Below are positions 11,211 to 37,783 of a stretch of DNA of 39,888 nucleotides, piece after piece; position 1 is the first letter of the stretch, and each line of letters begins with the position of its first letter. The DNA lies in the NCBI GenBank assembly GCA_902603925.1, contig CACKWQ010000009.1:1-39888 (forward strand). Direction: 5' to 3'. This DNA comes from an uncultured Pelagibacteraceae bacterium. GTDB lineage: Bacteria; Pseudomonadota; Alphaproteobacteria; Pelagibacterales; Pelagibacteraceae. The position numbers were made by a program, and so were the translations under genes. The notes beneath the pieces were generated by a model. It made no database searches. It saw nothing but the letters and a program-made list of their open reading frames with translations, and was not told the DNA's origin.

Positions 11211-12569
11211 TTAACCCTTAACAACTTCTCTAGTATTCGCGTTGTACGACTCTGTAAAAGGAATATCAACAACAACCGCATCAACCGGTACACCGGGTTT
11301 TTCAGAATACTTTTCAGGCAAATGTATTTTAAATTTAGCACCTGCTTTTCCTTTCGGAAAACCATTAGCATTTAATGTTCCATCATAAGGAACATAACCC
11401 ATTGCAATATTAGTTTTTTTCTCAGGGTGATACCAAGGTGATGTAATAAAACCAATTGGTTCACCACCGCCTTCACCTGATACCAACCAAAAGTCAGGGG
11501 CATATTCCTCTATTGGCTTTCCTCCAAGTTCCATACCGACAAGCTGAAGCTTATAAGGTTTTTTTCCAGCTTTTAAATCATCTCGCATTTGCTCAAGAAC
11601 TTTTTTTCCAACATAATCCGCTTTTTTATTCCATTCTCCTTTACCTGATAAAGACACCTGATATCCAAGATTACATTGAAAAGGGTTATGTTGGTAGTCC
11701 ATGTCTTGGCCCCATGATAATATTCCCGCCTGAATTCTTCGATGATGAGCAGGCGCAATAACCATTAGATTATGTTTTTTTCCCGCTTCGAGAACAGCGT
11801 TCCACATATCTTCTGCATATAGTGTACATTCTCTCAAATAAATTTCATATCCAGCTTCGCCTGAAAATCCAGATTGTGAAATTACACAGCTACGTCCACC
11901 AACTTTAGCTTCAGCTAAACCATAGAATGGCATGTTATCGAAATCAACGTGATCTCCACAAAGATCTTGCATTAATAACTTAGCTTTTGGACCTTGAATT
12001 TGGACAGGAGCAACATCTATTTCATCTATCTCGCAATCAAATCTATTATCACAATTAACTCCTTGTAAGTATAACGAGATATCACTGTCAGATAAACTAA
12101 ACCAAAATTCATTCTTAGAAATTCTTAACAATATTGGATCATTAAGAACACCTCCATAAGCATTACATAAAATTACGTATCTTGCTCTCATTGGCGAAAT
12201 TTTTGTTGCATCTCTTGTAATTACATAATCTACAAATTTTTCAGCATCAGGACCTTTAACTCTAATTTGTCTTTCAACGGCAACATTCCACATAGTTACA
12301 TGATTTTTGATTGCCTCATATTCTACCATTGCACCACCATCTTGGGGTTTTACATAACCTCTCGGGTGGTAAATTCTGTTATATACTGTTGCTCTCCAAC
12401 ATCCTGCTTTCATAGATAAATGCCAATAAGGAGACTTCCTCACCCTTGTTGATATTAACATTTCCACTTTTGTTGGTCCACTCTGTCTTAAATTGTATGG
12501 TACTTTTCTGTCAGATTGGTCAACTGATGTTATGTGTCTTATTTTATCATAATCAAATTCTTTAGACAT
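11211..12569 (-). CDS. GcvT/DmdA-family tetrahydrofolate-dependent methyltransferase or demethylase
   Basis: A 452-residue folate-binding GcvT-family protein. Segments typical of the family are MWNVAVERQIRVKGPDAEKFVDYV, the RYVILCNAYGGVLNDPILLRI stretch, QIQGPKAKLLMQDL, SGFSGEAGYEIYL, and a C-terminal barrel region ending in IGFITSPWYHPEKKTNIAMGYVP. The N-terminal STRVRKSPYWHL and the order of motifs resemble DMSP demethylase DmdA more than glycine-cleavage T-protein, but it is longer than DmdA (about 370 residues). It overlaps the MetF-like gene by 8 bases and sits downstream of the betaine transporter genes. I infer transfer of a methyl group from a methylated osmolyte to tetrahydrofolate, with MetF-like oxidising methyl-THF. 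DmdA, sarcosine or betaine-type substrates cannot be distinguished here. Confidence 0.75.
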   Translation of the reverse strand: MSKEFDYDKIRHITSVDQSDRKVPYNLRQSGPTKVEMLISTRVRKSPYWHLSMKAGCWRATVYNRIYHPRGYVKPQDGGAMVEYEAIKNHVTMWNVAVERQIRVKGPDAEKFVDYVITRDATKISPMRARYVILCNAYGGVLNDPILLRISKNEFWFSLSDSDISLYLQGVNCDNRFDCEIDEIDVAPVQIQGPKAKLLMQDLCGDHVDFDNMPFYGLAEAKVGGRSCVISQSGFSGEAGYEIYLRECTLYAEDMWNAVLEAGKKHNLMVIAPAHHRRIQAGILSWGQDMDYQHNPFQCNLGYQVSLSGKGEWNKKADYVGKKVLEQMRDDLKAGKKPYKLQLVGMELGGKPIEEYAPDFWLVSGEGGGEPIGFITSPWYHPEKKTNIAMGYVPYDGTLNANGFPKGKAGAKFKIHLPEKYSEKPGVPVDAVVVDIPFTESYNANTREVVKG

Positions 12570-13290
12570 AATTGTTCTCCACTAACCATTTTTTTGTTTC
12601 TTTAAGTCCACCAAAAGTATAAATATGAAAGTGATCTGTATGATCTTTTATCTTTCTTATTATATCATTTGGGTCCTTAGGCTTCATTAAATCTAAGGCT
12701 TTACTAAAGTTAGATTTAAGAAAGTTTATGGAATTTTTTGCACCAACGATATTTGCAAACTTTATTAAGCTTGTAAATTTTAATGGTCCAGTAATTCCCA
12801 CATGAACTGGTACTGTTTGCTTAGAAATGAAGTCTACTATTAGCTGAGGATCCAACAACCACTGTGTTACAATATAATCAGCATAAGGTTTTTTATCTTT
12901 CATAGCTTTTTCTAATTCTGAATCGGATATATCAGGACTCCCCTCGGGATGTCCAGCGATTCCTATCTTCATACCTTCAAAAAAACCTGTTTCTAAAAGT
13001 TGTATTGAACTATCAAATTTTCCTACTGGTTCTCTACTTCCTCCAATTACTAAACATTGTTTCACACCATAGTCTTTGCACCTTGTAATATACTCTTTAA
13101 GATGATTATCATTCTCAATTGACCTTGCAGGTATATGAGGGATTGGATTGAATCCTTTTTTAATCAGTTCGCCCGCTTTATCAGCAGTATCTTTAAAATC
13201 ACCGCCTGGTAAAAAAGTAATGTAGACATCTTTCAAGCTTGGAAGAGTTTCCAAACCTGTTTTAGGGCTAATTTCTAAAGAAAAATTCAT
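12562..13290 (-). CDS. Methylenetetrahydrofolate reductase-like (MetF family, short form)
   Basis: A 242-residue MetF-family TIM barrel, shorter than E. coli MetF (about 296). Recognisable points are FSLEISPKTG at the start (the conserved Glu of the EFFPP-type motif), PHIPARSI (in place of the HLTC segment), the QCLVIGGSREP strand, and GIAGHPEGSPD, the counterpart of the AGYPE motif. It is coupled to the GcvT/DmdA-like gene by an 8-base overlap and follows proW by 65 bases. In this position it most likely oxidises 5-methyl-THF produced by the partner to 5,10-methylene-THF, rather than making methyl-THF for methionine synthesis. The family call is good; the reaction direction is inference from context. 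Confidence 0.78.
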   Translation of the reverse strand: MNFSLEISPKTGLETLPSLKDVYITFLPGGDFKDTADKAGELIKKGFNPIPHIPARSIENDNHLKEYITRCKDYGVKQCLVIGGSREPVGKFDSSIQLLETGFFEGMKIGIAGHPEGSPDISDSELEKAMKDKKPYADYIVTQWLLDPQLIVDFISKQTVPVHVGITGPLKFTSLIKFANIVGAKNSINFLKSNFSKALDLMKPKDPNDIIRKIKDHTDHFHIYTFGGLKETKKWLVENNYV

Positions 13291-13355
13291 TTTCGAATTC
13301 TTATTTATTTTATAAAAACTGTCTATAAAAATCGTTTATTCTTAGGATGATGAGA

Positions 13356-14237
13356 CTATTTTTTCTGACCTCTGTGTTTTTGGATCCTCTGACCGTATTG
13401 TTGTGTAACTCTATCAAAAATTATTGCCAAAGCCACAATTGCTAAGCCATTCATTAATCCTGAAGCTAAATATTGATTAGAAATTGCTTGTAAAATAGGT
13501 ATTCCTAATCCCTTAACTCCTATCATTGATGCAATTACTACCATTGCTAAAGCCATCATTATTGTTTGGTTAACACCTGCAAAAATTGTTGGTAATGAAA
13601 GAGGAATTTGAACAGTTTTAAGCTTTTGTAAGGTTGTGGCTCCAAAGGCTTCACTGGCCTCAAGAGTTTCTTTATCTACTTCTCTAATTCCTAAATTTGT
13701 AAGCCTTACAATTGGAGGTAGAGCATAAACACATACTGCCAATAAACCAGGCACTTTACCAATTCCTAGTAGCATTATTATGGGTATTAAATATACAAAA
13801 CTTGGTATGGTTTGCATCATGTCCAGAATCGGTAGAATTCCTTTTTCAGCTCGATTAGATTTTGACATTAAAATACCTATCGGAATTCCAACAGCAACAC
13901 ACACCAATGTAGCTACCGAAATTATTGCAACTGTTGCCATACAATTTTTCCACATACCAAAGTAACCAATTATTAAAAAACTTAAGACTGTACCAATTGC
14001 TAATTTATAACTTCTAGAACCAAACCATGCCAAGAAACCAAAGGCAAAAATTATTATTGGCCAAGGAGCACCGACAAGTAATTTTTCTAACCAAATTAAA
14101 AAGGATAGTAGCGGATCAAAAAAACTTTCTATTGAGTCGCCATATTCTCTTGAGAATTCTTTAAAATTTTGGTCAATACCCTTTTTCAAATCTCGAAGAG
14201 ATTGTCTATCCATTACAGGAATTTTATTGAAATCCAT
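13356..14237 (-). CDS. proW: Glycine betaine-type ABC transporter permease
   Basis: Inner-membrane permease of the OpuAB/ProW family, 293 residues. A cytoplasmic N-terminal stretch of about 50 residues is followed by hydrophobic helices: PWPIIIFAFGFLAWFG, LAIGTVLSFLIIGYFGM, VAIISVATLVCVAVGIPIGI and others. The ATPase-docking EAA loop is around residues 185-215 (ETLEASEAFGATTLQKLKTV), then IPLSLPTIFAGVNQTIMMALAMVV, a strong ProW signature. It follows proX, from which it is separated by 61 bases containing a hairpin. No ATPase gene is adjacent; the ATPase at 30527-31552 or the one at 36736 must serve it. Substrate (glycine betaine, carnitine, choline or similar) is inferred from family and neighbours. 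Confidence 0.92.
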   Translation of the reverse strand: MDFNKIPVMDRQSLRDLKKGIDQNFKEFSREYGDSIESFFDPLLSFLIWLEKLLVGAPWPIIIFAFGFLAWFGSRSYKLAIGTVLSFLIIGYFGMWKNCMATVAIISVATLVCVAVGIPIGILMSKSNRAEKGILPILDMMQTIPSFVYLIPIIMLLGIGKVPGLLAVCVYALPPIVRLTNLGIREVDKETLEASEAFGATTLQKLKTVQIPLSLPTIFAGVNQTIMMALAMVVIASMIGVKGLGIPILQAISNQYLASGLMNGLAIVALAIIFDRVTQQYGQRIQKHRGQKK

Positions 14238-14253
14238 TTTAATATAATACTAT

Positions 14254-14281
14254 AAACGAGCCTGTAAATACAGGCTCGTTT
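14254..14281 (-). terminator. Intercistronic hairpin between proX and proW
   Basis: A perfect 13-bp inverted repeat (arms 14254-14266 and 14269-14281) with a G+C-rich core, GAGCCTG/CAGGCTC, which stands out in this A+T-rich sequence. On the minus strand it lies 17 bases after the proX stop and 16 bases before the proW start, followed by only a weak T tract (GTTTATAG). It could act as a partial terminator or as a 3' stabiliser of the proX message. Either would give more binding protein than permease. A similar hairpin follows the second proX gene. Confidence 0.75.
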
Positions 14282-14298
14282 CAAGATTAAATAAGGTA

Positions 14299-15318
14299 TT
14301 ATAAGCCTATGCCTTCTCTAATTTTATCAGCAGTAGATTTAGGAACCCATTTAGACCAAACTTCTGGGTATCTTACTAAAAATTCAACTGCAGCATCTGC
14401 GCCATCTGCTTGTTGTTCTGCCATATAAACTAGCATACCGTTCATAACATCACCTGGGTATGTTCTTTTCTTAAAGTAGTTCATTCCAGCTTTTCCAGCA
14501 GTGTTTTTATAATTGTCTGATACAACCGTAAACACTTCTGATTTTACCCACGATGATTTTTTTGGATTTGCACATTCTTGTTCAGGTTTTGATAAGCAGT
14601 TATCCCAATTGTCTTTACCTGCATATTCACCCATATCAACTGCTTGTAAATTATATTTACCAACTAGTGAAGTAGGAGACCAGTAGTAACCAAACCAATT
14701 TTCTCCTCTTTCAGCAGCTTTTGCAATTGATCCGTCTAAACCTGCGGCTGAACCAGTTTCAACAATAGCCCATCCTTTAGACTCCATTTCCCATGCTCTA
14801 AAATGATTTCTGTTACTTAGTTCACAATTCCATCCCGGAGGACATATATGGAAACCACCTTTTGACGGGTCTTCTGGATGTGGAAAAAGATCAGGTCTTT
14901 TTAATATTTCATCTGCAGAAGTTAGTTCCGGATGTTTTTCTAAAGTTGCTGGAAGTACCCACCAACCTTCACCTAAACCTGTAATAGGTGCTTTATTTAT
15001 TGAATGCAATTTTCCTTCTTTAACTGCAGCTTCTAATTCGACAATTGCGGCATTAGCCCAAAATTCTGGAGCTACGTCAGGTTCACCTTTTTCTTGCATA
15101 GAAGTAAAAGTCGGCATCGTTGCACCTGGTATAAGTTCAACATTACAACCAAACCCCTTCTCAAGAATAACTTTATCTACTTCAGCCATGAAATTAGCAG
15201 AAGCCCAGTTCATGTTTGCTATGGTAATATCTCCGCATTCAGCTTGGGCTGAAACATTATAAGAGTTAAAACCTAATACAAATAGAGCTGTTACTAGTAT
15301 TTTTTTTATTAATTTCAT
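14299..15318 (-). CDS. proX: Periplasmic substrate-binding protein of a glycine betaine-type ABC transporter
   Basis: A 339-residue OpuAC/ProX-family binding protein. It begins with a Sec signal peptide (MKLIKKILVTALFVLGF, cleavage near SAQA). The ligand site of this family is an aromatic cage, and several Trp/Tyr-rich segments are present: IANMNWASANFMAEV, PEFWANAAIV, GEGWWVLPATL, WFGYYWSPTSL. Four or more Cys occur, including GGFHICPPGWNCELS, suggesting a disulfide. An ATG 12 bases upstream (15330) is in frame, but it overlaps the GGAG ribosome-binding site; the ATG at 15318 lies 6 bases after that GGAG and starts directly at the signal peptide. It is first in a minus-strand operon with proW, metF-like and gcvT-like genes, and is divergent from bhmT. 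Confidence 0.92.
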   Translation of the reverse strand: MKLIKKILVTALFVLGFNSYNVSAQAECGDITIANMNWASANFMAEVDKVILEKGFGCNVELIPGATMPTFTSMQEKGEPDVAPEFWANAAIVELEAAVKEGKLHSINKAPITGLGEGWWVLPATLEKHPELTSADEILKRPDLFPHPEDPSKGGFHICPPGWNCELSNRNHFRAWEMESKGWAIVETGSAAGLDGSIAKAAERGENWFGYYWSPTSLVGKYNLQAVDMGEYAGKDNWDNCLSKPEQECANPKKSSWVKSEVFTVVSDNYKNTAGKAGMNYFKKRTYPGDVMNGMLVYMAEQQADGADAAVEFLVRYPEVWSKWVPKSTADKIREGIGL

Positions 15319-15324
15319 TATCAT

Positions 15325-15328
15325 CTCC
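15325..15328 (-). promoter_or_regulatory. Shine-Dalgarno site setting the proX start
   Basis: GGAG on the minus strand, 6 bases before the ATG at 15318. Its overlap with the alternative upstream ATG at 15330 argues that translation starts at 15318. A clear Shine-Dalgarno is uncommon among the genes in this window and fits a highly expressed binding protein. Confidence 0.65.
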
Positions 15329-15334
15329 ATTAAT

Positions 15335-15340
15335 TATAAT
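15335..15340 (+). promoter_or_regulatory. Candidate -10 box for the bhmT transcript
   Basis: An exact TATAAT. Transcription would begin near 15347, just before the candidate riboswitch at 15361. No convincing TTGACA is seen 16-18 bases upstream, where the sequence is already inside proX. The region is so A+T-rich that chance matches are common, and the same bases also read TATAAT on the other strand (15333-15338). Confidence 0.3.
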
Positions 15341-15360
15341 TAAACTTTATGAGAACATAT

Positions 15361-15420
15361 TGGGAAGAAAAAAGCAAACTACTTACAACTTCCAGTTGTG
15401 TGAAAATTGTCTTTGTTACT
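15361..15420 (+). ncRNA. Candidate SAM-V/SAM-II-like riboswitch in the bhmT leader
   Basis: The 5' leader of bhmT contains a possible H-type pseudoknot. Stem 1 is GGAAG (15363-15367) with CTTCC (15389-15393). Its loop carries AGCAAA (15373-15378), which can pair with TTTGTT (15412-15417) downstream, giving six pairs including one G-U. The linker GTGTGAAAATTGTC between them is A-rich, like the triplex-forming strand of SAM-II aptamers. SAM-V, which shares the SAM-II core, was described from Pelagibacter and marine metagenomes upstream of methionine-cycle genes. The position before bhmT, whose product makes methionine, fits feedback by S-adenosylmethionine. The class is assigned from memory of the architecture and was not matched to a covariance model. 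Confidence 0.5.
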
Positions 15421-15457
15421 AACTTAATTTAAATATAAAATTTTAATTTAATAGAAT

Positions 15458-16498
15458 ATGAAAAAAAATTTAATTACTCGACTAAATGAAGGACCAGTTC
15501 TTTTAGCTGAAGGTTATTTATTTGCCATGGAGAGGAGAGGCTATTTGTCAGCAGGAGCATTTGTCCCAGAGGTAGTTTTAGAACATCCAGAGGTAGTTTC
15601 ACAATTGCATAGAGAATTTATTAGATCTGGATCTGATATTATTCAGGCATTTACATATTATGGTCATAGAGAGAAACTAAGAATTATTGGAAAGGAAAAT
15701 CTTTTAGAGCCATTACAGAAAAATGCATTACAAATTGCAAAGGACTCTGCAAAAGAATTTAAAGACTTAGACTTAATGGTTTGTGGAGATGTTGCAAATA
15801 CAAATATTTTTGATCCAAGTGATAAATCTAGTTTTAAAGAATGCCAAAAAATGTACGAGGAACAAGTAAAATGGGCAAAGGAGGCAGGGGTTGATTTTAT
15901 AGTTGCTGAAACAATTAGTTGGGTTGATGAAATGAAAATCGCTTTAAAAGCAATTAAGGACGAAGGTTTAATAGCAGTTACAAATTATGCAATTCCAAGA
16001 GGAGATAAAACTAGAGATGGCTACTCATCAGAAGATGCTTGTAAAATTATTGAGGATTTAGGTGCAGATGTAGTTGGACTAAATTGTTATAGGGGTCCTG
16101 ATATGACAATGAAGCTTTTAAACAAAGTTAGGGATACTGTTTCTTGTCATGTTGCAGGTTTGCCGGTTCCTTATAGAACAACAGAAGAAGATCCAACCTT
16201 TCTTAATGTTGTAGACAAAGATTGCGATTGTATACCCGGCAATAATGCCTTTCCAGTAGCTTTAGACAATATGTATTGTAATAGATTTGAAATGGGTAAA
16301 TTTGCTAAACAATGTGTAAAAAAAAATATAAATTTCATAGGTATTTGTTGTGGCGCTGAACCTCATCATGTGAGAGAAATGGCTATAGCCTTAGGAAAAA
16401 AACCCATTTCGTCAAAATATATTCCTGACATGACCAAACATTTTCACCATGGCACCGATAATTCTTTAAAAAAAGTTAATAAAGAAATTAAATATTAA
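15458..16498 (+). CDS. bhmT: Betaine-homocysteine S-methyltransferase
   Basis: Transfers one methyl group from glycine betaine to homocysteine, yielding methionine and dimethylglycine. The 346-residue protein is a Pfam S-methyl_trans TIM barrel. The three zinc ligands expected for the family are present: Cys210 in VGLNC and the Cys297-Cys298 pair in GICCGAEPHHVREMA. The N-terminus NEGPVLLAEGYLFAMERRGYLSAG and the segment DIIQAFTYYGHREKL match the BHMT substrate region. It is the first gene of a plus-strand operon led by a candidate SAM riboswitch, and the demethylase gene follows after 10 bases. Neighbouring proX/proW would bring in betaine. A homocysteine methyltransferase using another donor (such as S-methylmethionine) is possible, but the context favours betaine. 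Confidence 0.88.
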   Translation: MKKNLITRLNEGPVLLAEGYLFAMERRGYLSAGAFVPEVVLEHPEVVSQLHREFIRSGSDIIQAFTYYGHREKLRIIGKENLLEPLQKNALQIAKDSAKEFKDLDLMVCGDVANTNIFDPSDKSSFKECQKMYEEQVKWAKEAGVDFIVAETISWVDEMKIALKAIKDEGLIAVTNYAIPRGDKTRDGYSSEDACKIIEDLGADVVGLNCYRGPDMTMKLLNKVRDTVSCHVAGLPVPYRTTEEDPTFLNVVDKDCDCIPGNNAFPVALDNMYCNRFEMGKFAKQCVKKNINFIGICCGAEPHHVREMAIALGKKPISSKYIPDMTKHFHHGTDNSLKKVNKEIKY

Positions 16499-16508
16499 GT
16501 TTTATTTA

Positions 16509-18548
16509 ATGAAAAATGATCCACTTTTACAGCCTTTAAAAATAAAACATTTAGAATTAAAAAATAGAATTATGTTATCTGCACACGAGCCGTCCTATGC
16601 TGAGGATGGATTACCAAAGGATAAATATAGATATTATCATGTTGAAAGAGCGAAGGGAGGTGTTGCTCTTACAATGACCGCGGGAAGTGCAGTTGTTTCT
16701 GAGGACTCACCTCCTGCATATAACAATCTTCATGCATACAAAGATGAAATTATTCCTTGGTTAAAAAAACTAACTAAAGAATGCCATGATCATGGAGCCA
16801 AAGTAATGATACAAATTACACATCTAGGCAGAAGAACAAATTGGAATCACTCAGATTGGTTACCAGTTTTATCAGCATCCCCAATAAGAGAACCTGCTCA
16901 CAGGTCATTTCCGAAAGAAGCTGAGGATTGGGATATTGAAAGAATTATAAAAGATTATGGAGAAGCCGCACAAAGAATAAAAGAAGCAGGACTAGATGGA
17001 GTTGAAATTGAAGCATATGGTCATTTATTAGATTCTTTTTGGTCACCAGCAACTAATAAGAGAAATGATAATTTTGGAGGTGATCTTGATAAAAGAATGC
17101 ATTTTTCTATGAAAGTAATCGAATCTGTTCGTTCTCATGTAGGTAATGATTTTATTGTAGGAATGAGAATGGTTGCAGATGAGGATTGGAAAATTGGTCT
17201 TTCAAAGGAAGATGGAATTAAGATAGCCAAAAAAGTTACATCAAATGGAAAAATAGATTTTCTTAATATAATAAAAGGACATATAGATACTGATACCTCA
17301 TTAACAAAAGTAATACCTATACAAGGAATGCCATCGGCTCCACATCTTGATTTTGCTGGAGAAATTAAAAAAATTGTAAATGTTCCAATTTTCCATGCAT
17401 CTAAAATTAATGATGTTGCTACAGCAAGATATGCAATCGAAAGCAATAAATTGGATATGGTTGGAATGACAAGAGCTCATATTGCCGATCCGCATATAGT
17501 TAAAAAAATTATACAAAAAAAAGAAGAAACAATAAGACCATGTGTTGGAGCAACATATTGTTTAGATAGAATTTATGAGGGAAAAGACACTTTATGTGTT
17601 CATAATCCATCCACAGGCAGAGAAATGATAATGCCACATGTATTTGAAAAAAAAACTCCAAAGCTTAGGAAAATAGTCATTGTTGGTGCAGGACCTTCTG
17701 GTCTCGAAGCAGCTCGTATATGTTCAGAGAGAGGCCATGAAGTAATTGTTTTTGAAGCAACAGACAAACCAGGCGGTCAAATTAATTTGATTACTAGGTC
17801 TACAAAAAGAAAAGACATGATTGGAATTGTGGATTGGAGAGTTCAAATGTGCGAAAAAAATAATGTTAAAATTATTTATAACAATTTTGTTACCAAAGAA
17901 GAAATTTTAAAACAAGATCCTGATGTTATTATAATTGCAACAGGCGGTGTACCAAATATTGATGTTTTAGAAGAGGGTTCTGACTTAGTTGTATCTACGT
18001 GGGATGTTTTATCTGGTAATGTTAATTTAGAAGACGATATAGTTTTGTACGACGATGGAGGATATTTTTCAGGATTGCAAGCTGCAGAATTAATATCTGA
18101 GAAATCAAAAAATTTTGAGGTAATAACACCAGAAAGATTTTTCGCGCCCGATATTGGTGGAATGAATTTTGTACCGTATGGAAGAAATTTATATGAAAAA
18201 AATGTTAAAATTTCGATCAATAAAAGAGTCAATAAAGTTTACAAAAAAGGCAACAGACTCGGTCTAAAAATAATATCAGACTATTCTGACAAGGTGTATG
18301 AGCAAGAAACATCCCAAGTTGTTGTGGAGCATGGAACACTGCCACTTGATGATTTATATTTTAATTTAAAACCAAATTCCAAGAATGTTGGTGAGGTAGA
18401 TTATAAGTCGTTTAAAAAAGGTATTAACAGATTAATTAACAAAAATATGGAAGGTAAATATTATTTATTTAGAGTAGGTGACGCTATTTCAAGTAGAAAT
18501 ATTCATGCTGCGATATACGACTCACTCCGAATATGTAAAGATTTATAA
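16509..18548 (+). CDS. Flavin-dependent N-demethylase (dimethylglycine/N-methylproline demethylase-like, DgcA/StcD family)
   Basis: A 679-residue two-part flavoprotein. Residues 1-340 form an Old Yellow Enzyme-type FMN TIM barrel (LKIKHLELKNRIMLSAHEP, IQITHLGRR, DGVEIEAYGHLLDSFWSPATNKR). Residues 390-679 are an NAD(P)/FAD-binding part starting IVIVGAGPSGLEAARICSERG with GGQINL. Between them lies the iron-sulfur region CVGATYC...C: Cys345, Cys351 and Cys363 align with cluster ligands of trimethylamine dehydrogenase, but the second ligand position is Ala348. The layout matches trimethylamine/dimethylamine dehydrogenases, 2,4-dienoyl-CoA reductase and DgcA/StcD demethylases. Position 10 bases after bhmT points to dimethylglycine, BhmT's product, giving sarcosine and formaldehyde. 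The methyltransferase gene begins one base after the stop. Confidence 0.75.
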   Translation: MKNDPLLQPLKIKHLELKNRIMLSAHEPSYAEDGLPKDKYRYYHVERAKGGVALTMTAGSAVVSEDSPPAYNNLHAYKDEIIPWLKKLTKECHDHGAKVMIQITHLGRRTNWNHSDWLPVLSASPIREPAHRSFPKEAEDWDIERIIKDYGEAAQRIKEAGLDGVEIEAYGHLLDSFWSPATNKRNDNFGGDLDKRMHFSMKVIESVRSHVGNDFIVGMRMVADEDWKIGLSKEDGIKIAKKVTSNGKIDFLNIIKGHIDTDTSLTKVIPIQGMPSAPHLDFAGEIKKIVNVPIFHASKINDVATARYAIESNKLDMVGMTRAHIADPHIVKKIIQKKEETIRPCVGATYCLDRIYEGKDTLCVHNPSTGREMIMPHVFEKKTPKLRKIVIVGAGPSGLEAARICSERGHEVIVFEATDKPGGQINLITRSTKRKDMIGIVDWRVQMCEKNNVKIIYNNFVTKEEILKQDPDVIIIATGGVPNIDVLEEGSDLVVSTWDVLSGNVNLEDDIVLYDDGGYFSGLQAAELISEKSKNFEVITPERFFAPDIGGMNFVPYGRNLYEKNVKISINKRVNKVYKKGNRLGLKIISDYSDKVYEQETSQVVVEHGTLPLDDLYFNLKPNSKNVGEVDYKSFKKGINRLINKNMEGKYYLFRVGDAISSRNIHAAIYDSLRICKDL

Positions 18549-18549
18549 A

Positions 18550-19953: not shown

Positions 19954-19955
19954 AT

Positions 19956-21196: not shown

Positions 21197-21199
21197 ACA

Positions 21200-23130: not shown

Positions 23131-23156
23131 ATACCAAAGTTTTTTTGAACTTAATA

Positions 23157-24740: not shown

Positions 24741-24743
24741 AGT

Positions 24744-25571: not shown

Positions 25572-25620
25572 TTTAAAAGAATATATATTGCTTTTAAATT
25601 TGTCACTAAGAATTTTAAAA

Positions 25621-26091
25621 TTATTTCTTAAGTTTTGATATAAATTTTAAATTATCAATTTTAAAATTATCTTTGTGTTTTGATATATAGTCGTCCATTA
25701 TTTGAACTTTCTCACTTTCAAATTCCGCTACTTTTCTTTCAGCTAAATCTACATATAGGGATAATGCCTCAATTGTGGACGCAATATATTTTTTCTCACT
25801 ATGCACCATTTCAAGCTTATAAAGGATTCTTTTTTTATCATGATCACAAAAAATTAAATTAACATCAACCTCATCACCTTCTTGAACTTCTTGATTGTAT
25901 GTAATGTGTGACTCAACAACCATAGTGCTCTTTTTTGTAGTTTTGGCTGAATCCTCACCCATTTTAAACAATGTCATTAATTCTTCTGATCCATATTGAT
26001 CAAATATTAAAACTTAATATGCAACATTCATATGACCATTGTAATCAGTCCACTCTTTTTTAATTTTTTGTTTGGTTAAAAATATACTCAT
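25621..26091 (-). pseudogene. Acyl-CoA thioesterase (4HBT, CdhB-like) interrupted by an in-frame TAA
   Basis: Reading from ATG at 26091 gives the typical 4HBT start: residues 1-25 end in WTDYNGHMNVAY, with the catalytic-region Asp16 and GHMN, then TAA at 26016-26014, then VLIFDQYGSEELMTLFKMG in the same frame and a normal C-terminus to 25621. No frameshift is needed; one base (TAT or TAC to TAA) restores a complete protein of about 156 residues. The downstream piece alone could start at ATG 25977 (118 residues) but would lack the active-site strand. The start overlaps the CitE-like stop in an ATGA, showing the original gene began there. In carnitine operons the equivalent protein hydrolyses betainyl-CoA to glycine betaine. 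Possible explanations: true inactivation, sequencing error, or strain variation. Confidence 0.8.
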
Positions 26092-26945: not shown

Positions 26946-27003
26946 TAACTATTATATCCTATAATTTAAGATGATATGATATTATACTTACTAATAAATA
27001 AAA

Positions 27004-27888
27004 ATGAATAATAAAGTATTTATCTCTTGTGCAATAACAGGATCTGGTGATACTGCCAGCAAACATCCGGATTTACCTAAAACTCCAGAACAGATAGCAA
27101 AGGCATCAATTGATGCGGCAAAAGCAGGAGCAGCAATCGCACACATACATGTTAGAGAAGAGGACGGCACCCCAAGTAGAAGATTAGAACTTTATAAAGA
27201 GGTTGTTGATAGAGTAAGATCATCTGATACGGATGTTGTTCTTAATTTAACCACTGGAATGGGTGGGGATCTTGATATTGGAGAAAAAAATCCTCTAGAA
27301 TTTGGGCCTTTAACTGACATGGTTAATGTTATGGAAAGAATTGCAAACGCAGAACAATTCCTTCCTGAAATATGTACATTAGATTGTGGAACATTAAATT
27401 TTGGTGATGGGTCTGTTATAACAGTAAACACGCCAAGGGATTTAAGAAGAGCGGCAAAAAAACTTCAAGATATAAAAGTTAAGCCTGAAATCGAAGCATT
27501 TGACCTTGGTAATATGTGGTTTGGCGCTCAACTTTATCAAGAAGGTTTATTGAGCGATCCTCCTATGTTTCAGATGTGTTTAGGAATTCCTTGGGGAGCA
27601 CCTGCAACTCCATTAGCTATGCAAGCAATGAAAGATATAATGCCTAAAGAAGCAGTATGGTCTGGTTTTGCAATTTCTAGAAATGAAATGCCGTACGTAG
27701 CACAAACCGTAGTAATGGGAGGAAATCCAAGGGTGGGATTAGAAGATAATTTGTATATTTCAAAAGGTAAGCTTGCGACAAATCCACAACTAGTTGAAAA
27801 AGCTAGAAGAATTGTTGAAGACTTGGGAGCTTCCATAATGACACCACAAGAAACAAGAGAAAAGTTAAAACTTGTAAAACACAAGTAA
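27004..27888 (+). CDS. Beta-keto acid cleavage enzyme (BKACE/DUF849), likely 3-dehydrocarnitine-acetyl-CoA transferase
   Basis: BKACE enzymes use acetyl-CoA to cleave a beta-keto acid into acetoacetate and a new CoA ester. The 294-residue protein starts FISCAITGSGDTAS, has the zinc ligands His47 and His49 in AHIHVRE, the NLTTGMGG and CTLDCGTLNFGD segments, EAFDLGNMWFGAQL, and the end VVMGGNPRVGLEDNLYI. The next gene, overlapping the stop codon by one base, is a carnitine-dehydrogenase-like enzyme; this pairing matches the bacterial carnitine route, in which dehydrocarnitine becomes betainyl-CoA plus acetoacetate (CdhC). That substrate assignment rests on the neighbour; other BKACE substrates such as 3-keto-5-aminohexanoate are possible. 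Confidence 0.85.
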   Translation: MNNKVFISCAITGSGDTASKHPDLPKTPEQIAKASIDAAKAGAAIAHIHVREEDGTPSRRLELYKEVVDRVRSSDTDVVLNLTTGMGGDLDIGEKNPLEFGPLTDMVNVMERIANAEQFLPEICTLDCGTLNFGDGSVITVNTPRDLRRAAKKLQDIKVKPEIEAFDLGNMWFGAQLYQEGLLSDPPMFQMCLGIPWGAPATPLAMQAMKDIMPKEAVWSGFAISRNEMPYVAQTVVMGGNPRVGLEDNLYISKGKLATNPQLVEKARRIVEDLGASIMTPQETREKLKLVKHK

Positions 27889-28832
27889 TGAACTCAATTA
27901 AGAATGTTGCAGTAATTGGCACAGGAGTTATTGGTATTGGTTGGATCATCCGATGTTTGGCACATGGAAAAAAAGTAAAAGCTTACGACTTAAAAATAAA
28001 ATCAAGAATTAAAGTTCTAAAAGAAATTAAACGATCATCTCAGTATGTCAAAAAAATGTTTCGAATAAAAAAAATTAATCTTAAAAATCTATCATTTCAT
28101 AAAACTTTAAAGGATGTTCTTTTTAATTCAGAATTTATAATAGAGTGTGCGCCAGAAAATTATAAAATTAAAATTAATCTTATGGAAGAAATAGGAAAAA
28201 ATTCGAAACCCCAAGCAATAATTTCATCCAGTTCATCTGGCTTGCTACCAACTAAAATATACTCAAAATGCCTTAATCCAGAAAGAGGCCTTATTGGTCA
28301 TCCATTTAACCCTGTGTACCTATTACCTGGGGTAGAAGTAGTGCCTGGAAAAAAAACTTCCAAAAAAAATATGTTAAAAACTAAGAAATTTTATACCTCA
28401 ATATCTATGAAACCAATTATGATAAAAAAAGAACTACCCGGATATCTGTCTGATAGACTACAAGAGGCTTTATGGAGAGAGGGATTACATATATTAAACG
28501 AAGGTTTTGCGAGCACTGAAGAATTAGATCGATCAATAGAAGATGGTCCAGGTTTAAGATATTCTTTAATGGGTACTTTTTTAACTTTTCATTTAGCAGG
28601 AGGCAAACAAGGCATGAAGCACATGTTAAAACAATTTGGTCCCGCTTTAAAATTACCCTGGACAAAATTAAAGGCACCAAAATTAAATAAAAAGTTAAAG
28701 GATAAAATCATTAATGGAACTAAAATGCAGTCTAAAGGCAAATCAATTGATATGTTAGCTAATATAAGAGATGAATATTTAGTAGAAGTCCAAAAATTAA
28801 GATCTAAATACATAAATAAAATAAGAAATTAA
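27888..28832 (+). CDS. L-carnitine dehydrogenase (3-hydroxyacyl-CoA dehydrogenase fold)
   Basis: NAD-dependent oxidation of L-carnitine to 3-dehydrocarnitine. The 314-residue protein has the dinucleotide-binding start KNVAVIGTGVIGIGWIIRCLAHG, then IIECAPENYKIKI, SSSSGLLPTKIYS and GHPFNPVYLLPGVEVVPG, with the catalytic His in GHPFNP. The C-terminal DGPGLRYSLMGTFLTFHLAGG and QFGPALKLPWTKL strongly resemble carnitine dehydrogenases rather than fatty-acid 3-hydroxyacyl-CoA dehydrogenases. It overlaps the BKACE stop by one base and the GFA gene start by one base. With BKACE and the broken thioesterase it forms the CdhA/B/C set. The gene is noticeably Lys/Ile-rich compared with BKACE, but motifs are intact. 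Confidence 0.85.
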   Translation: MNSIKNVAVIGTGVIGIGWIIRCLAHGKKVKAYDLKIKSRIKVLKEIKRSSQYVKKMFRIKKINLKNLSFHKTLKDVLFNSEFIIECAPENYKIKINLMEEIGKNSKPQAIISSSSSGLLPTKIYSKCLNPERGLIGHPFNPVYLLPGVEVVPGKKTSKKNMLKTKKFYTSISMKPIMIKKELPGYLSDRLQEALWREGLHILNEGFASTEELDRSIEDGPGLRYSLMGTFLTFHLAGGKQGMKHMLKQFGPALKLPWTKLKAPKLNKKLKDKIINGTKMQSKGKSIDMLANIRDEYLVEVQKLRSKYINKIRN

Positions 28833-29239
28833 TGGAAAAAAAATTTGTGACAAAAACTGGTGGGTGCATATGTGGATTTGTAAAATTCAAAGTTAAATTG
28901 GACGAATTACCTAGAGTTTTTAACTGCCACTGTTCTGACTGTAGAAAAAAAATCGGGGGAATGATGTCAATAATTCAGTTAAGAGAAGAAGCCCTAGATT
29001 TAGATAAAAATATTTTGAAAACTTTTGAGCATAAAGGCTCTAGTGGTAACAAGATAAGAAAATATTTTTGTGGCAATTGTGCAGCTCCTGTTCTTACTTA
29101 TGTGCAAAAATGGGATAGATATTATTTATATGCTGGTCTATTAGATGATATAAGTATTTTAAAAAAAGCAAAAAATATTTTTTTTGAGGATTCACATTTT
29201 CCTTTTATGGAGATTAATGAGGATAAATTAAAACCTTAA
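28832..29239 (+). CDS. GFA-family (glutathione-dependent formaldehyde-activating-like) zinc protein
   Basis: A 135-residue CENP-V/GFA-domain protein. Zinc-ligand cysteines appear in the expected order: GGCICGFVKFKV (CxC), NCHCSDCRKK (CxxC region) and KYFCGNCAAPVL (CxxC). The founding family member was proposed to speed the reaction of formaldehyde with glutathione, but many members have other or unknown roles. It overlaps the carnitine dehydrogenase stop by one base, so it is in that operon. Since N-demethylation upstream would release formaldehyde and gshA/gshB are present in the window, a role in formaldehyde handling is attractive but unproven. The family call is firm. Confidence 0.88.
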   Translation: MEKKFVTKTGGCICGFVKFKVKLDELPRVFNCHCSDCRKKIGGMMSIIQLREEALDLDKNILKTFEHKGSSGNKIRKYFCGNCAAPVLTYVQKWDRYYLYAGLLDDISILKKAKNIFFEDSHFPFMEINEDKLKP

Positions 29240-29303
29240 TCATGTGGCAAGATGTTACATTAAATTGAGTTGAATACCTTTTTTTTAACATTATATCACT
29301 CTC

Positions 29304-29741
29304 ATGCTTAAATCGCTTAAAAACTCAATACTTATTGTATTAACAGTCATAATTTTTCAAAGTCCTTCTATTGCCGATGAAACAATAGAAATGTTAAATA
29401 AACTTAACAATGAGTCTATGGTTTATTCAAAAAAAATTGTTAAAGTAAATGTAGGGGACACTGTTTTTTGGAAATCAACCACAAAAGGCCACAACGTTGA
29501 ATTTATTAAGGGCGGAACTCCAGAAGGAGTTGGAAAATTTAAGTCTAAAATGAATCAAGATACAGAGTTCAAATTTACTGTTCCAGGTATTTATGCTTAT
29601 TGGTGCACCCCTCACAAAGCAATGGGTATGATCGGTTTTGTTGTTGTGGGTGATGACAAATCAAACTTAGAAGCTATAAAAAAGATTAGGTTCGTTGGAA
29701 AATCAAAAAAAATTGCACCTGATTTAATTTCCCAGCTTTAA
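29304..29741 (+). CDS. Pseudoazurin-like cupredoxin
   Basis: A 145-residue periplasmic type I copper protein. It has a signal peptide (MLKSLKNSILIVLTVIIFQSPSIA, cleavage near IADE). The mature part has the first copper His in TKGHNVEFI and the C-terminal cluster YWCTPHKAMGMIGFVVVG, which supplies Cys, His and Met ligands with pseudoazurin spacing. Pseudoazurins pass electrons to periplasmic enzymes such as nitrite reductase or between respiratory complexes; no partner enzyme is seen here. A 64-base gap with no obvious promoter separates it from the GFA gene. Its 3' end overlaps the convergent SDR gene by 4 bases. Confidence 0.9.
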   Translation: MLKSLKNSILIVLTVIIFQSPSIADETIEMLNKLNNESMVYSKKIVKVNVGDTVFWKSTTKGHNVEFIKGGTPEGVGKFKSKMNQDTEFKFTVPGIYAYWCTPHKAMGMIGFVVVGDDKSNLEAIKKIRFVGKSKKIAPDLISQL

Positions 29742-30526
29742 TCAAGTCTTATAGCATCTCCATTTACACCGATTATTTGTCCTGATATTCTTAAAGCATC
29801 ATCTGAAATTAAAAAGCTACACATTTTTCCGATATCATCCTCATAAATCCAGCTTCTCATTGATGACATAGATAAAAATTCTTTTTCCACTTTCTTCTTT
29901 GAAATTTTTAAAAAATTCGCCTTATCTCTCACAACTCTTATCATCCTGTCACCCTTAATTGTTCCTGGTAAAATTGTATTTACCCTTATTTTATATTTTC
30001 CAAGTTCCATTGCTAAAGTTTTAGTAATACCTATAACGGCCCATTTGCTTGCCGCATATGGAGATCTTAATGGAAAACCCATCACACCCGCATCTGATGA
30101 TATATTAATTATTGAACCACCCTTATTTTTCTTGATCATAGGTATAGATAATTTTGTAAAAAGAAAATGACTAATAACATTTGTTCTCAGTGTTTTCTCC
30201 CAATCTCTCAAACTTATTTTTTCAAAAGTAGCTGTTGGACCTGCTATACCAACATTGTTTATTGCACAATCAATTTTAGAAGTTTTCTTTTTAATTCTCT
30301 CAAATAAATTTTTTACTTGATCTTCATCTGAAGCATCACATTTAAAAATATGAAGTTTTGTACTTTTATTTGATTTTTTTAGCTTATTTATAAATTTTTC
30401 ATTTATATCAGATAGAAATACAGTAGCTCCTCTATTTAAACATACTTTAGTTATAGCAAGACCAATTCCAGATGCACCTGCAGAAATAATAATTTTTTTA
30501 TTTTTTAATGATTGATTGATCATCAA
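29738..30526 (-). CDS. Short-chain dehydrogenase/reductase
   Basis: A 262-residue classical SDR. The cofactor loop is SAGASGIGLAITKVCLNRG (TGxxxGxG with Ser-Ala in place of Thr-Gly), then CAINNVGIAGP (NNAG-type motif), the catalytic Ser in IINISSDAG, and YAASK near residue 155 for Tyr and Lys. The DIN after strand 2 suggests preference for NAD(H). It starts on the base after the ProV stop, so the two are translated from one message. The substrate may be related to what the transporter brings in (an alcohol or hydroxy acid of the betaine/carnitine group), but that is a guess from location. Confidence 0.88.
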   Translation of the reverse strand: MMINQSLKNKKIIISAGASGIGLAITKVCLNRGATVFLSDINEKFINKLKKSNKSTKLHIFKCDASDEDQVKNLFERIKKKTSKIDCAINNVGIAGPTATFEKISLRDWEKTLRTNVISHFLFTKLSIPMIKKNKGGSIINISSDAGVMGFPLRSPYAASKWAVIGITKTLAMELGKYKIRVNTILPGTIKGDRMIRVVRDKANFLKISKKKVEKEFLSMSSMRSWIYEDDIGKMCSFLISDDALRISGQIIGVNGDAIRLD

Positions 30527-31552
30527 CTAGGATTTTGTAAGTGTTTTTTGTAATTCTTTGTTTGTAATATAACCTTTTACATTTCCAGATTTATCAACTA
30601 CTTCACAACTAGCGTTTGTGCAAACAACTTGAGGTAAAAATTCTTCAATAAATTGGTCCTCACCAACCTTCACCAGGTTATTTTTATCAATTCCGTTAGA
30701 ATTTTTTACAGTATTCATTATAGTTTTTGCTTTAATAACTTTAGTTCTATTTACATCTTTTACAAAGGCTTCAACATAGTCATCAGCAGGATTCATAATA
30801 ATATCCACTGGAGTGCCTACTTGTACCAGTTTTCCGTCATTTAAAATTCCAATATGATCACCTAATCGCAAAGACTCATCTAAATCGTGAGTTATAAAAA
30901 CAATTGTTTTCTTTAATTCAGATTGAAGACTAAGTAACTGTTTTTGCATATCACTTCTTATTAAAGGATCTAGTGCAGAAAAAGCTTCATCCATTAACAT
31001 GATATCAGTATCGGTTGCTAAAGCTCTAGCCAATCCAACTCTTTGTTGCATACCACCAGACAACTGTGCTGGAAATTGTTTTTCAAATCCGCTTAGACCA
31101 ACAGCTTCAATTTTTTCCATGGAAGTTTTATTTCTCTCAGCCTCAGATATGCCTTGCATTTCCAAACCATAACCGACATTTTCAATTACAGTTCGATGTG
31201 GAAATAAACCAAACCTTTGAAAAACCATACTCATTTTGTGCCTCCTAAACTCTACAAGCTTTTCTTTGTTAAGGGACATTACATTGGTACCTTCAATTAA
31301 TATTTCACCTTCTGTAGGGTCAATTAACCTATTTAGGTGCCTTATTAACGTAGATTTGCCGGACCCTGAAAGACCCATGCATACAAAAGTTTCTCCCTCT
31401 TCAATTTTAAGAGAAACGTTATCAAGACCCACTGTATGTCCTGTTTCTTCTAAAATTTGTTCTTTGGATTTACCCTCTTTAACCAATGGCAATATAGATT
31501 TAGGGTTATTACCAAATATTTTGTATACATTATTAATTTCTATTTTGGACAT
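30527..31552 (-). CDS. proV: Glycine betaine/carnitine-type ABC transporter ATPase (first copy)
   Basis: A 341-residue ProV/OpuAA-type ATPase. It has the family N-terminal extension (KIEINNVYKIFG...EETGHTVGLDNVSL) before Walker A GLSGSGKST, the Q-loop in MVFQRFGLFPHRT, signature LSGGMQQRVGLARAL, Walker B IMLMDEAFSALDPL (Glu-Ala where Glu-Pro is usual) and the switch His in IVFITHDLDESLR. A roughly 90-residue C-terminal tail (FLPQVVCTNASCEVVDKSGNVKGYITNKEL) resembles the CBS-type regulatory end of OpuA ATPases. A longer frame begins at 31591, but the ATG at 31552 matches family length. No permease is adjacent; it probably serves proW/proX at 13356-15318. The SDR follows directly; the BBOX-like gene is divergent. 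Confidence 0.9.
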   Translation of the reverse strand: MSKIEINNVYKIFGNNPKSILPLVKEGKSKEQILEETGHTVGLDNVSLKIEEGETFVCMGLSGSGKSTLIRHLNRLIDPTEGEILIEGTNVMSLNKEKLVEFRRHKMSMVFQRFGLFPHRTVIENVGYGLEMQGISEAERNKTSMEKIEAVGLSGFEKQFPAQLSGGMQQRVGLARALATDTDIMLMDEAFSALDPLIRSDMQKQLLSLQSELKKTIVFITHDLDESLRLGDHIGILNDGKLVQVGTPVDIIMNPADDYVEAFVKDVNRTKVIKAKTIMNTVKNSNGIDKNNLVKVGEDQFIEEFLPQVVCTNASCEVVDKSGNVKGYITNKELQKTLTKS

Positions 31553-31620
31553 ATTTATTAACTTTGTAGCAGTTGATTTTGTATCTTGCAAATTTTAGTA
31601 TTTTAAATAATTATTGATTT

Positions 31621-32754
31621 ATGGTTGAAATTAAGAACATAGAAAAAAATAATACCTATTTAAAAGTTCTTTGGTCAGATGGAGAAGAAAGTAAGTTTAA
31701 TTATTTGTGGCTTAGAGATAATTGCCCATCCGCACATGATAAAGACTCGAACCACAGAATGTTTAATATTCTTAATGTAAGCACGAGCATTAATCCAAAA
31801 AAATATAATGTAAATAAGCAGGGAAAGCTAGAAATAGAATGGAGCGAGGGTAACCATACAAGCTATTTTGATTTAAACTGGTTAAGAAAAAATTGTTACA
31901 CAATTAAAAATAAACAAAAATATATTTCTCCCTATAAATTGTGGGATAAATCTTTAGGCGATAAAATAAAAACAATATGTATTGAGCACGACGAAATAAT
32001 GGAGAGCACTGATGGATTAATCAAGTGGCTTGAACTATTGCATTATACTGGAATAGCAATTGTAAAAAATTCACCGGTTAAAGAAAAATCTGCATTTCCA
32101 GTTTTAAACAGAATAAGTCACACTAGAGAAACTTTTTTTAAGACTCCTTTTGAAGTTATAAACATACCAAAACCAAATAACTCTGCATATACATCTCATG
32201 CGCTTAGAAATCATATGGATTTACCTTGGTTTGAAAATCCACCTGGTTATCAATTTTTACATTGTTTAATAAACTCAGCAGATGGAGGCGAGTCTTCTGC
32301 TGTCGATGGGTTCGCTGTAGCAGAATATTTAAAACATAATAGTGAGGAAATTTATAATACTCTTACTAAAGTTTATTTAAAGTTTAGAGATAAAGATTAT
32401 ACACAAGAAAATCACAGAGGATTTCATGCTCCAGCTATAGGGCTAACAAAAGATGACGATTATCATGACATAAGGTTTAGTGTTGCCACTATGGATGCTC
32501 TTGATTGTCATCCAGATATTATGGATAAAGTTTATAAGGCACATCATGAATTTGGCAATTTATTACATAGTGATAAATTTCAAATTAATTTTAGAATGGA
32601 ACCTGGAGATATATTTTCTTTCAATAATAGAAGAGTTTTACACGGGCGAACAGCCTTTAACCCAAACTCTGGTCATAGACATTTACAAGGGTATTATATG
32701 GATAGAGATGAAATTATTGGAAGATTAAACTATCTCAAAAAATCTAAATCATAA
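31621..32754 (+). CDS. Gamma-butyrobetaine dioxygenase-like 2OG oxygenase
   Basis: Expected reaction: hydroxylation of gamma-butyrobetaine to L-carnitine with 2-oxoglutarate, O2 and Fe(II). The 377-residue protein has the BBOX two-domain form: an N-terminal DUF971-like domain (YLWLRDNCPS near residue 30) and a TauD-type core. Iron ligands are His198 and Asp200 in NHMDLPWFENPPGYQ and His341 in VLHGRTAF, with Arg353 in GHRHLQGYY for 2-oxoglutarate. GGESSAVDGFAVAEYL and the end RDEIIGRLNYLKK match BBOX. In human BBOX a zinc ion in the N-domain is held by CxCxxC and a His; here only Cys35 and His79 remain (Ser37, Asp40). Trimethyllysine dioxygenase is a related alternative, but the carnitine genes at 27004-28832 favour BBOX. 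Confidence 0.8.
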   Translation: MVEIKNIEKNNTYLKVLWSDGEESKFNYLWLRDNCPSAHDKDSNHRMFNILNVSTSINPKKYNVNKQGKLEIEWSEGNHTSYFDLNWLRKNCYTIKNKQKYISPYKLWDKSLGDKIKTICIEHDEIMESTDGLIKWLELLHYTGIAIVKNSPVKEKSAFPVLNRISHTRETFFKTPFEVINIPKPNNSAYTSHALRNHMDLPWFENPPGYQFLHCLINSADGGESSAVDGFAVAEYLKHNSEEIYNTLTKVYLKFRDKDYTQENHRGFHAPAIGLTKDDDYHDIRFSVATMDALDCHPDIMDKVYKAHHEFGNLLHSDKFQINFRMEPGDIFSFNNRRVLHGRTAFNPNSGHRHLQGYYMDRDEIIGRLNYLKKSKS

Positions 32755-33387: not shown

Positions 33388-33394
33388 ATAAAAA

Positions 33395-33422: not shown

Positions 33423-33444
33423 AATATTTTATAAAGCTATAAAA

Positions 33445-34449: not shown

Positions 34450-34484
34450 TATTATTTCCCCTTAATTAATTAATTAATATTTAT

Positions 34485-34514: not shown

Positions 34515-34554
34515 GTTCTTAAATGTACCGTTAAAAGATGTTATTTTATTAGGT

Positions 34555-37782: not shown

Positions 37783-37783
37783 T

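Follow-up and report, generated by a model that had tools for sequence, protein, structure and literature searches.

Gene content of the locus

The window, by which we mean the whole stretch of DNA analysed here, is one complete contig of 39,888 bases from a Pelagibacterales draft genome (63% complete, 843 kb, 39 contigs), and its nearest loci in named genomes are Pelagibacteraceae single cells and metagenome-assembled genomes, in agreement with the SAR11-like label of an earlier note made from the letters alone. Judged from its genes, the block at 21200-37782 is probably a quaternary-amine island of SAR11, the centre of which would make glycine betaine from carnitine compounds, standing beside an independent core locus at 11211-20729. 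SAR11 cells dominate the surface ocean, and therefore the methylated amines that they can use bear on marine carbon and nitrogen cycling. The computations of this work cover the presence and grouping of the genes, their signatures and co-occurrence, and the exchange of parts, the enzyme activities being predicted. The open reading frames (ORFs) named in the earlier note all exist where it placed them, with the families assigned below; no tRNA was found in the window, and nothing in Rfam at gathering score. The island genes that enter the proposed scheme are the following.

31621-32754 (+): BBOX-like 2-oxoglutarate (2OG) dioxygenase, proposed to convert gamma-butyrobetaine to L-carnitine (GBBH-like_N and TauD domains, pocket residues, co-occurrence)
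27888-28832 (+): carnitine 3-dehydrogenase (CDH), CdhA-like (profile match, NPVYLLP and DRLQEALWRE signature, co-occurrence)
27004-27888 (+): BKACE, CdhC-like, predicted to turn 3-dehydrocarnitine and acetyl-CoA into betainyl-CoA and acetoacetate (family match, tree)
25621-26091 (-): 4HBT betainyl-CoA thioesterase-like, CdhB-like, with an in-frame stop at codon 26 (about 26014-26016)
23157-24740 (-): GMC choline dehydrogenase, predicted to act from choline to glycine betaine (over the cut-off of the PRK02106 subfamily model)
32749-33387 (-): GDPD-family phosphodiesterase, possibly releasing choline from glycerophosphocholine
30527-31591 (-): ProV-type ABC ATPase, set B
33445-34449 (-): ProX, set C
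34555-36663 (-): tandem ProW-ProW permease, set C
36736-37782 (+): ProV, set C

In this scheme the ProXWV importers would bring in trimethylated compounds, the BBOX-like dioxygenase would hydroxylate gamma-butyrobetaine to L-carnitine, CDH would convert carnitine to 3-dehydrocarnitine, and BKACE would take the latter and acetyl-CoA to betainyl-CoA and acetoacetate, after which the 4HBT thioesterase, whose window copy has a nonsense codon, would free glycine betaine. The GDPD phosphodiesterase and choline dehydrogenase may form a second entry via choline. At the core locus, a BHMT-like enzyme may pass one methyl to homocysteine, and an OYE-type demethylase, placed in the slot of a dimethylglycine-dehydrogenase (DMGDH)-like gene, may remove the next. 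As to transport, the two ProX/ProW/ProV sets counted in the earlier note were a loose count: one full set (ProX, tandem ProW-ProW and ProV, 33445-37782) does exist, lying beyond the end of the region then drawn, and the rest consists of a ProX and a ProW without ProV (14299 and 13356) and a lone ProV (30527). The ProW of set C is a tandem fusion, one 702-amino-acid frame with two BPD_transp_1 stretches.

BKACE and carnitine dehydrogenase

Both genes were searched for in 397 Pelagibacterales genomes, of which 165 matched BKACE (159 strongly; the six weak matches were dropped) and 153 matched CDH at E 1e-30 or better. BKACE and CDH occur together in 147 genomes, BKACE only in 12, CDH only in six (one of these, G370, is also among the six weak BKACE matches; G and L numbers are our handles for genomes and loci) and neither in 232, giving a Fisher odds ratio of 474 with the weak matches excluded. 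Where both positions were listed (138 genomes), the two genes stand side by side in 109, on the same contig but apart in 20, and on different contigs in nine. A scattering of the genes among relatives, which the earlier note had named as a ground for doubt, is thus not what these genomes present.

A BKACE tree of 57 rows, from which three duplicate rows were dropped, places the SAR11 BKACEs inside a 29-row clade with support 100/97. Twelve of the 14 non-SAR11 rows in this clade adjoin a CDH homologue, adjacency being scored at a low limit (60 bits) that lets in loose CDH homologues, and one of the other two is the PDB sequence 3c6c, which has no context; the second large clade holds 27 rows, 10 of them CDH-adjacent. 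The SAR11 BKACE families f1 (11 rows) and f2 (4 rows) each form a single group at 100/100 and stand apart from each other, with f1 branching as sister to a single row of the CDH-adjacent kind (97/97) and f2 as sister to three different ones (99/96). Because these sister rows differ, the tree fits two separate entries of BKACE into Pelagibacterales. On a Rhizobium plasmid, BKACE is followed by an annotated carnitine 3-dehydrogenase. Gene-order maps were drawn with a rough ORF caller, which gave wrong frames in GC-rich genomes (L178, L182, L183), where a tblastn map was used.

The window CDH is carnitine-dehydrogenase-like at 334 bits and carries a signature derived in this analysis from four proteins over the cut-off of the L-carnitine dehydrogenase model NF005471 (L119-L122), namely NPVYLLP together with an Asp in DRLxEAxWRE that replaces the Asn of the wider hydroxyacyl-CoA dehydrogenase family. 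The signature is present in all four of these proteins and in 11 of the 12 CDH homologues adjoining BKACEs of the 29-row clade (L119-L125, L127, L128, L130, L132); the exception, L145, lies beside the outlying BKACE row L235 and has NPPY and Thr. It is missing from the lambda-crystallin homologue, from 4om8 and from NPPH/NRL-type homologues. The earlier note would have yielded to a grouping of BKACE and the dehydrogenase with non-carnitine enzymes, and the opposite was found, the tree clade being mostly CDH-adjacent and the signature shared.

Island loci were compared as the best 80 of 340 by identity, the proportions in which lean to near relatives. Of 64 loci with at least 8.5 kb of right flank, 56 have CDH only, six a HIBADH-like gene only, two both and none neither, and the HIBADH-like protein (family F27) was considered as a CDH replacement in the CDH-less islands. 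This candidate was rejected: genomes whose island has no CDH beside BKACE carry it elsewhere, about 20 kb off in G105 and G315 and 26 kb off in G309, hence CDH has moved and was not replaced. Where CDH is not beside BKACE, a HIBADH-like dehydrogenase (L070:13720-14661, -) and an ALDH come after GDPD.

The BBOX-like dioxygenase

The protein at 31621 has a GBBH-like N-domain and a TauD domain with the Fe ligands H-x-D...H, and it keeps the Fe ligands, N191, Y194 and Y366 of human BBOX1. Its pocket reads F, F, N/S, Y, H, D and L at human positions 177, 181, 191, 194, 202, 204 and 205, residues whose functional roles we assume to be those of BBOX1; the changed ones are identical in 13 other island BBOXs checked across various gene orders, with V, T or I at 293.

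The gene was searched for in 40 BKACE-positive and 40 BKACE-negative genomes, a non-random draw (the negatives taken as the 40 with the lowest handle numbers, the positives as 30 genomes at every second f1 handle from the start, plus G283 and nine f2 handles), and was found in 38 of the 40 positives vs 7 of the 40 negatives. BKACE, CDH and BBOX are contiguous in four f2 loci (L199, L200, L203, L204), and in two of them BHMT and an 802-amino-acid DMGDH-like gene follow one gene further on. The pocket type with leucine at 205 (L205-type) also has BKACE and CDH as neighbours in two unrelated bacteria, G532 and Burkholderia stagnalis. In the second of these, BKACE, CDH, a weakly matching thioesterase (38 bits) and BBOX are consecutive within 4.6 kb; two other Burkholderia records have BKACE and BBOX matches that start about 3.6 kb apart. 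By these counts (397 genomes for BKACE and CDH, 80 for BBOX) the three genes travel together, far above chance.

The entry from gamma-butyrobetaine and carnitine to glycine betaine, as the earlier note had drawn it, therefore finds support in phylogeny and signature residues, in the co-occurrence of the genes and in a gene order that recurs in unrelated bacteria. We regard the predicted route from carnitine to glycine betaine as well supported, and a gamma-butyrobetaine to carnitine step by the BBOX-like enzyme as likely.

The window genome has two more BBOX-family paralogues (G000:C7:37175-38206, L112; G000:C2:8753-9793, L113), with pockets of the N205 and A205 types.

The adjacent core locus and the sarcosine end

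The genes of the core locus that bear on the later steps are these.

11211-12569 (-): DmdA/GcvT-like protein
12562-13290 (-): MTHFR-like protein
13356-14237 (-): ProW, set A
14299-15330 (-): ProX, set A
15458-16498 (+): BHMT-like methyltransferase (homocysteine S-methyltransferase/BHMT-like)
16509-18548 (+): OYE-type N-demethylase, DgcA/HpbA-like (OYE plus NAD(P)-binding flavoenzyme), in the slot of an 801-802-amino-acid DMGDH-like gene

Most of nine relatives around the window-type BHMT share the order u10646, DmdA-like, MTHFR-like, ProW, ProX, BHMT, a protein of 801-802 amino acids, a methyltransferase and more. The window at 11211-20729 follows the same order as this SAR11 core glycine-betaine locus (DmdA-like, MTHFR-like, ProWX, BHMT, DMGDH-like), differing in the OYE-type demethylase that occupies the DMGDH slot; the 802-amino-acid slot protein of L270, the one scanned, is DAO+GCV_T, a dimethylglycine-dehydrogenase build. 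A window-type BHMT (73-85% identity, partial matches counted) is found in 34 of 101 genus genomes, the window's own included. At the corresponding place of the close relatives L205 and L206 (genomes G205 and G246), ProX is followed by the methyltransferase without BHMT, and G177, 90% complete and with the island genes present, has no BHMT of window type, just a distant 26% match. Since G177 keeps the island without it, sarcosine is not a necessary end. Island and core locus are neighbours evolving independently, and the sarcosine step, which is possible, belongs to the latter. The chain to sarcosine proposed earlier thus stands as to the presence of the BHMT and demethylase genes and falls as to their forming one unit with the carnitine genes, for they lie in a separate core locus and are absent from G177 and from the L205 and L206 places.

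These facts bear on the alternative that the island makes glycine betaine purely as a compatible solute and is not catabolic. The case of G177 speaks for it, but BHMT and a demethylase both lie within the window, BKACE-CDH-BBOX is joined to BHMT and a DMGDH-like gene in two f2 loci, and the published account of an Arctic SAR11 island (PMC12421898) itself also names methyl donor and glycine source as a possible role; we give a solute-only function a real chance, though hardly an even one.

The window BHMT keeps three Zn-binding cysteines (C217, C299, C300) and scores below the curated BHMT cut-off (PRK07534, 103 bits vs 338). At D26, W44, Y77, E159 and Y160 of human BHMT, which we take to be its betaine-pocket positions, the window protein and the aligned window-type homologues have E, F, Y, E and T, so that D26, W44 and Y160 are replaced. 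The OYE protein was found in one of 151 genus genomes, the window's own, and its relatives at E 1e-60 or better in 31 other genomes of the 142 in a class sample (best 59%); the GC content of its gene, overall and at third codon positions, matches the neighbours. Its closest named homologue is HpbA, an N-methyl-L-proline demethylase, at 56%. By family the OYE protein is a predicted N-methyl-amino-acid demethylase, the substrate of which could be dimethylglycine, favoured by the slot, or N-methylproline, favoured by the nearest name.

It is accordingly conceivable, though we consider it unlikely, that the BHMT/OYE pair acts on proline betaine or N-methylproline, not on glycine betaine and dimethylglycine, and that no sarcosine end exists. 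The HpbA relationship, the proline racemase genes next to two OYE relatives (L294, L299) and the departures of BHMT from the human betaine pocket would all suit such a role; against it, OYE comes directly after BHMT, where relatives have the 801-802-amino-acid protein, and other OYE relatives adjoin Rieske+reductase (L292), MTTB (L295) and DAO (L296) genes.

The cysteine motif of OYE (PCVGATYC...C) is one Cys short of that in the more distant homologues of L294 and L295. Rieske oxygenase alpha subunits lie near BHMT in the core locus of other genomes (L270:7275-8462, +; L272:3996-5171, -), possibly a second, oxygenase route of betaine demethylation. M24/creatinase-family proteins occur in glycine-betaine loci (L270:12551-13786, +; L199:12801-14171, +), with a possible creatine or guanidino link.

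The interrupted thioesterase and the divergent tract

The protein at 25621 is a 4HBT thioesterase that matches the thioesterase end of PRK07531. Its frame (25621-26091, -) consists of 25 residues, one in-frame stop at codon 26, and then 130 residues. Five relatives with the same gene order (L002, L003, L006, L008, L009) have no stop there, the length being 156 amino acids in L002, L003 and L009, and downstream of the stop the window ORF is 94% identical to them; the description of this gene as broken is thus borne out. The thioesterase step in the window genome may be lost, or may be covered by another thioesterase, or the stop may be a sequencing error, since the genome is a 63% complete draft.

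For choline dehydrogenase, TauD, thioesterase, CitE, BKACE and the ProX, ProW-ProW and ProV of set C, identity between the window and the same five relatives is 94-98%. The tract from CDH to GDPD (27888-33387) departs from this level: CDH 73%, GFA 76%, pseudoazurin 70% and SDR 72%, then, in its right part, the ProV of set B 88%, BBOX 91% and GDPD 77%. Among themselves the five relatives agree at 95% in CDH, with pseudoazurin varying too (84.5% on average), and the closest CDH to that of the window among the best 80 of 340 loci reaches 74%. The simplest reading of these identities is that the tract was recombined from an unsampled SAR11 lineage, starting at the BKACE/CDH junction.

The stop at codon 26 and a CDH at 73% to relatives vs 95% among them could also mean that the carnitine route is decaying in this genome, the stop codon being real and the divergent CDH reflecting relaxed selection. 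We hold this to be improbable: the thioesterase after the stop and BKACE remain 94% and 98% identical to relatives, the CDH signature is kept, the divergence spans a run of neighbouring genes, which is a better fit to recombination than to decay, and an error is possible in a draft of 63% completeness.

Points against the route and the substrate of BBOX

Beyond the stop codon, the G177 genome and the altered BHMT pocket described above, several observations weigh against a carnitine island. The window CDH and BBOX both score below curated cut-offs (334 bits vs 414 for NF005471, and 311 bits vs 415 for the gamma-butyrobetaine dioxygenase model TIGR02409), and the BBOX pocket departs from human BBOX1 in Y177F, W181F, Y205L and N292S. 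Seven of the 40 BKACE-negative genomes have a BBOX; five of the seven are 95-99% complete and have no CDH (G020, G022, G058, G078, G092), the others being G071 and G079, the last with CDH. Outside SAR11, one of 10 L205-type BBOXs in the class sample (that of G532) is linked to BKACE/CDH, as judged from listed coordinates; no annotated carnitine gene lies within 7 kb of a BBOX on a Rhodobacteraceae plasmid; and in two Caballeronia strains the BBOX and BKACE matches fall on different replicons. Finally, the TauD, 2OG, CitE, GFA and pseudoazurin genes of the island fit nowhere in the proposed scheme.

TmpA was tried as the main identity of the island BBOX and rejected, the latter being without the N205 and NNR signature of TmpA; N205 and N292 are shared with TmpA by four alphaproteobacterial proteins that exceed the TIGR02409 cut-off, three of which also have NNR. 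No match to a TmpB-like partner was found in the window's own 63% complete genome.

That the BBOX-like enzyme instead hydroxylates another trimethylammonium compound, such as 2-trimethylaminoethylphosphonate (TMAEP) as TmpA does, carnitine then being only external, seems to us quite improbable. In favour of it, the island BBOX aligns nearly as well to TmpA (157 bits) as to human BBOX1 (169 bits), N292 and N293 of the latter are S and V in the window, TmpB-like HD oxygenases stand in 23 of 80 sister loci, and BBOX occurs apart from BKACE and CDH as just described. Against it, the island enzyme has neither the N205 nor the N292 of TmpA and of the four TIGR02409 members over the cut-off, its pocket is the same with TmpB-like genes (L013, L061, L070, L074) and without them (window, L018), bar V/T/I at 293, and the L205 type adjoins BKACE and CDH in G532 and B. 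stagnalis.

Comparison with known systems

A SAR11 island from the Arctic that holds CDH, BBOX, BKACE and choline dehydrogenase was reported in mBio in 2025 (PMC12421898). That island and the window have in common a glycine-betaine transporter, choline dehydrogenase, CDH, BBOX, BKACE, GPDP, ACOT, a second dioxygenase and DMT, and both lie upstream of betaine/choline/proline ABC genes. HADH, ALDH and LGL also figure in the published list, but none of these families was found among the scanned ORFs of 20729-38716; the list further includes a class II aldolase, the slot of which is taken by CitE in the window. The GFA, pseudoazurin and 2OG genes of the window are additional to the published set; its thioesterase is interrupted, and the core BHMT locus lies next door. 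The main text of PMC12421898 makes no mention of phosphonate. A literature search for Pelagibacter with carnitine dehydrogenase, or keto acid cleavage with carnitine, found nothing beyond this paper, subscription journals being mostly outside the search. The collection of these genes in a SAR11 genome, singled out earlier as the notable point, is thus real but already in print. This kind of island is known; what is new here is its breadth, its two lineages, its slots with interchangeable genes (sister islands have a TmpB-like oxygenase), the divergent CDH-to-GDPD tract and the interrupted thioesterase.

PMC12421898 ties the island to polar latitudes, whereas here BKACE is present in 159 of 397 genomes of the order; the island, if the reading is true, may not be purely a polar adaptation. 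If it holds in about 40% of sampled Pelagibacterales genomes, carnitine would be a marine nutrient or osmolyte source that has been under-counted. Two enzymes, a BBOX with an unusual pocket and a TmpB-like oxygenase, are open to testing with cultured Arctic strains.

The CdhA-CdhC-CdhB route of Pseudomonas, Ruegeria and Sinorhizobium, as described in PMC12482172 and PMC12478193, likewise has dehydrogenase, BKACE and 4HBT thioesterase close together, and Ruegeria pomeroyi raises CdhABC on N-osmolytes including carnitine (PMC12478193). The BKACE clade and CDH signature of the window are common to alphaproteobacterial BKACE-CDH pairs. The thioesterase of the window is a separate, interrupted gene, whereas CDH frames of 475-505 amino acids in five class loci fit CDH-thioesterase fusions; unlike the CdhA-CdhC-CdhB systems, the SAR11 block adds BBOX, choline dehydrogenase and GDPD. 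The B. stagnalis row (L297) has the same four steps by homology and the same BBOX pocket type, at identities to the window of 58% (BKACE), 45% (CDH) and 33% (BBOX), and the 12.9 kb read there contain no match to choline dehydrogenase.

Exchangeable slots and remaining genes

The remaining genes of the island are as follows.

21200-22171 (-): IPNS/ACCO-type 2OG-Fe(II) oxygenase
22168-23130 (-): EamA/DMT transporter
24744-25571 (-): TauD-type 2OG dioxygenase without the GBBH N-domain
26088-26945 (-): CitE/HpcH-type C-C lyase, in a slot taken by class II aldolase in some other islands
28832-29239 (+): GFA-family protein, within the divergent tract
29304-29741 (+): pseudoazurin
29738-30526 (-): SDR oxidoreductase, relatives of which come after BKACE-CDH in three non-SAR11 loci (L180, L185, L186)

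Searches of PDB sequences with the proteins at 24744, 26088 and 21200 gave broad families only. Gene content varies among islands, with 11 patterns in the 50 loci that have full flanks. In 68 loci with at least 4.5 kb of left flank, CitE only was found 54 times, class II aldolase only eight times, neither six times and both never; the two exchange one slot, and no reaction of the scheme needs such a lyase.

The TmpB-like HD-domain oxygenase present in 23 of the 80 loci (for example L019:620-1168, -, and 22 others of L002-L081) has its best PDB match in TmpB (105 bits; PhnZ 85 bits). It occurs 19 times in the 68 left-complete loci, always with choline dehydrogenase (19/19), and a match to it was found in 50 of 201 genus genomes, some of the matches being weak or of a second type at 36-38%. 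This gene suggests that TMAEP may serve sister islands as an extra source of glycine betaine (and phosphate).

Tentatively, and with somewhat less than even confidence, we propose that the locus is a SAR11-wide hotspot, in which trimethylammonium modules (BBOX-CDH-BKACE-thioesterase for carnitine/gamma-butyrobetaine, GDPD-choline dehydrogenase for choline, and a TmpB-like oxygenase for TMAEP in sister islands), all ending in glycine betaine, would be gathered beside a betaine transporter and have their parts swapped by homologous recombination, of which the divergent CDH-to-GDPD tract of the window would be an example. In this genome an OYE-type demethylase, acquired and placed in the DMGDH slot, would have carried the pathway further towards sarcosine.

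Some islands also have arginase-family or weak ADI-family matches (L074:478-1479, L070:171-1280), again with a possible creatine or guanidino link.

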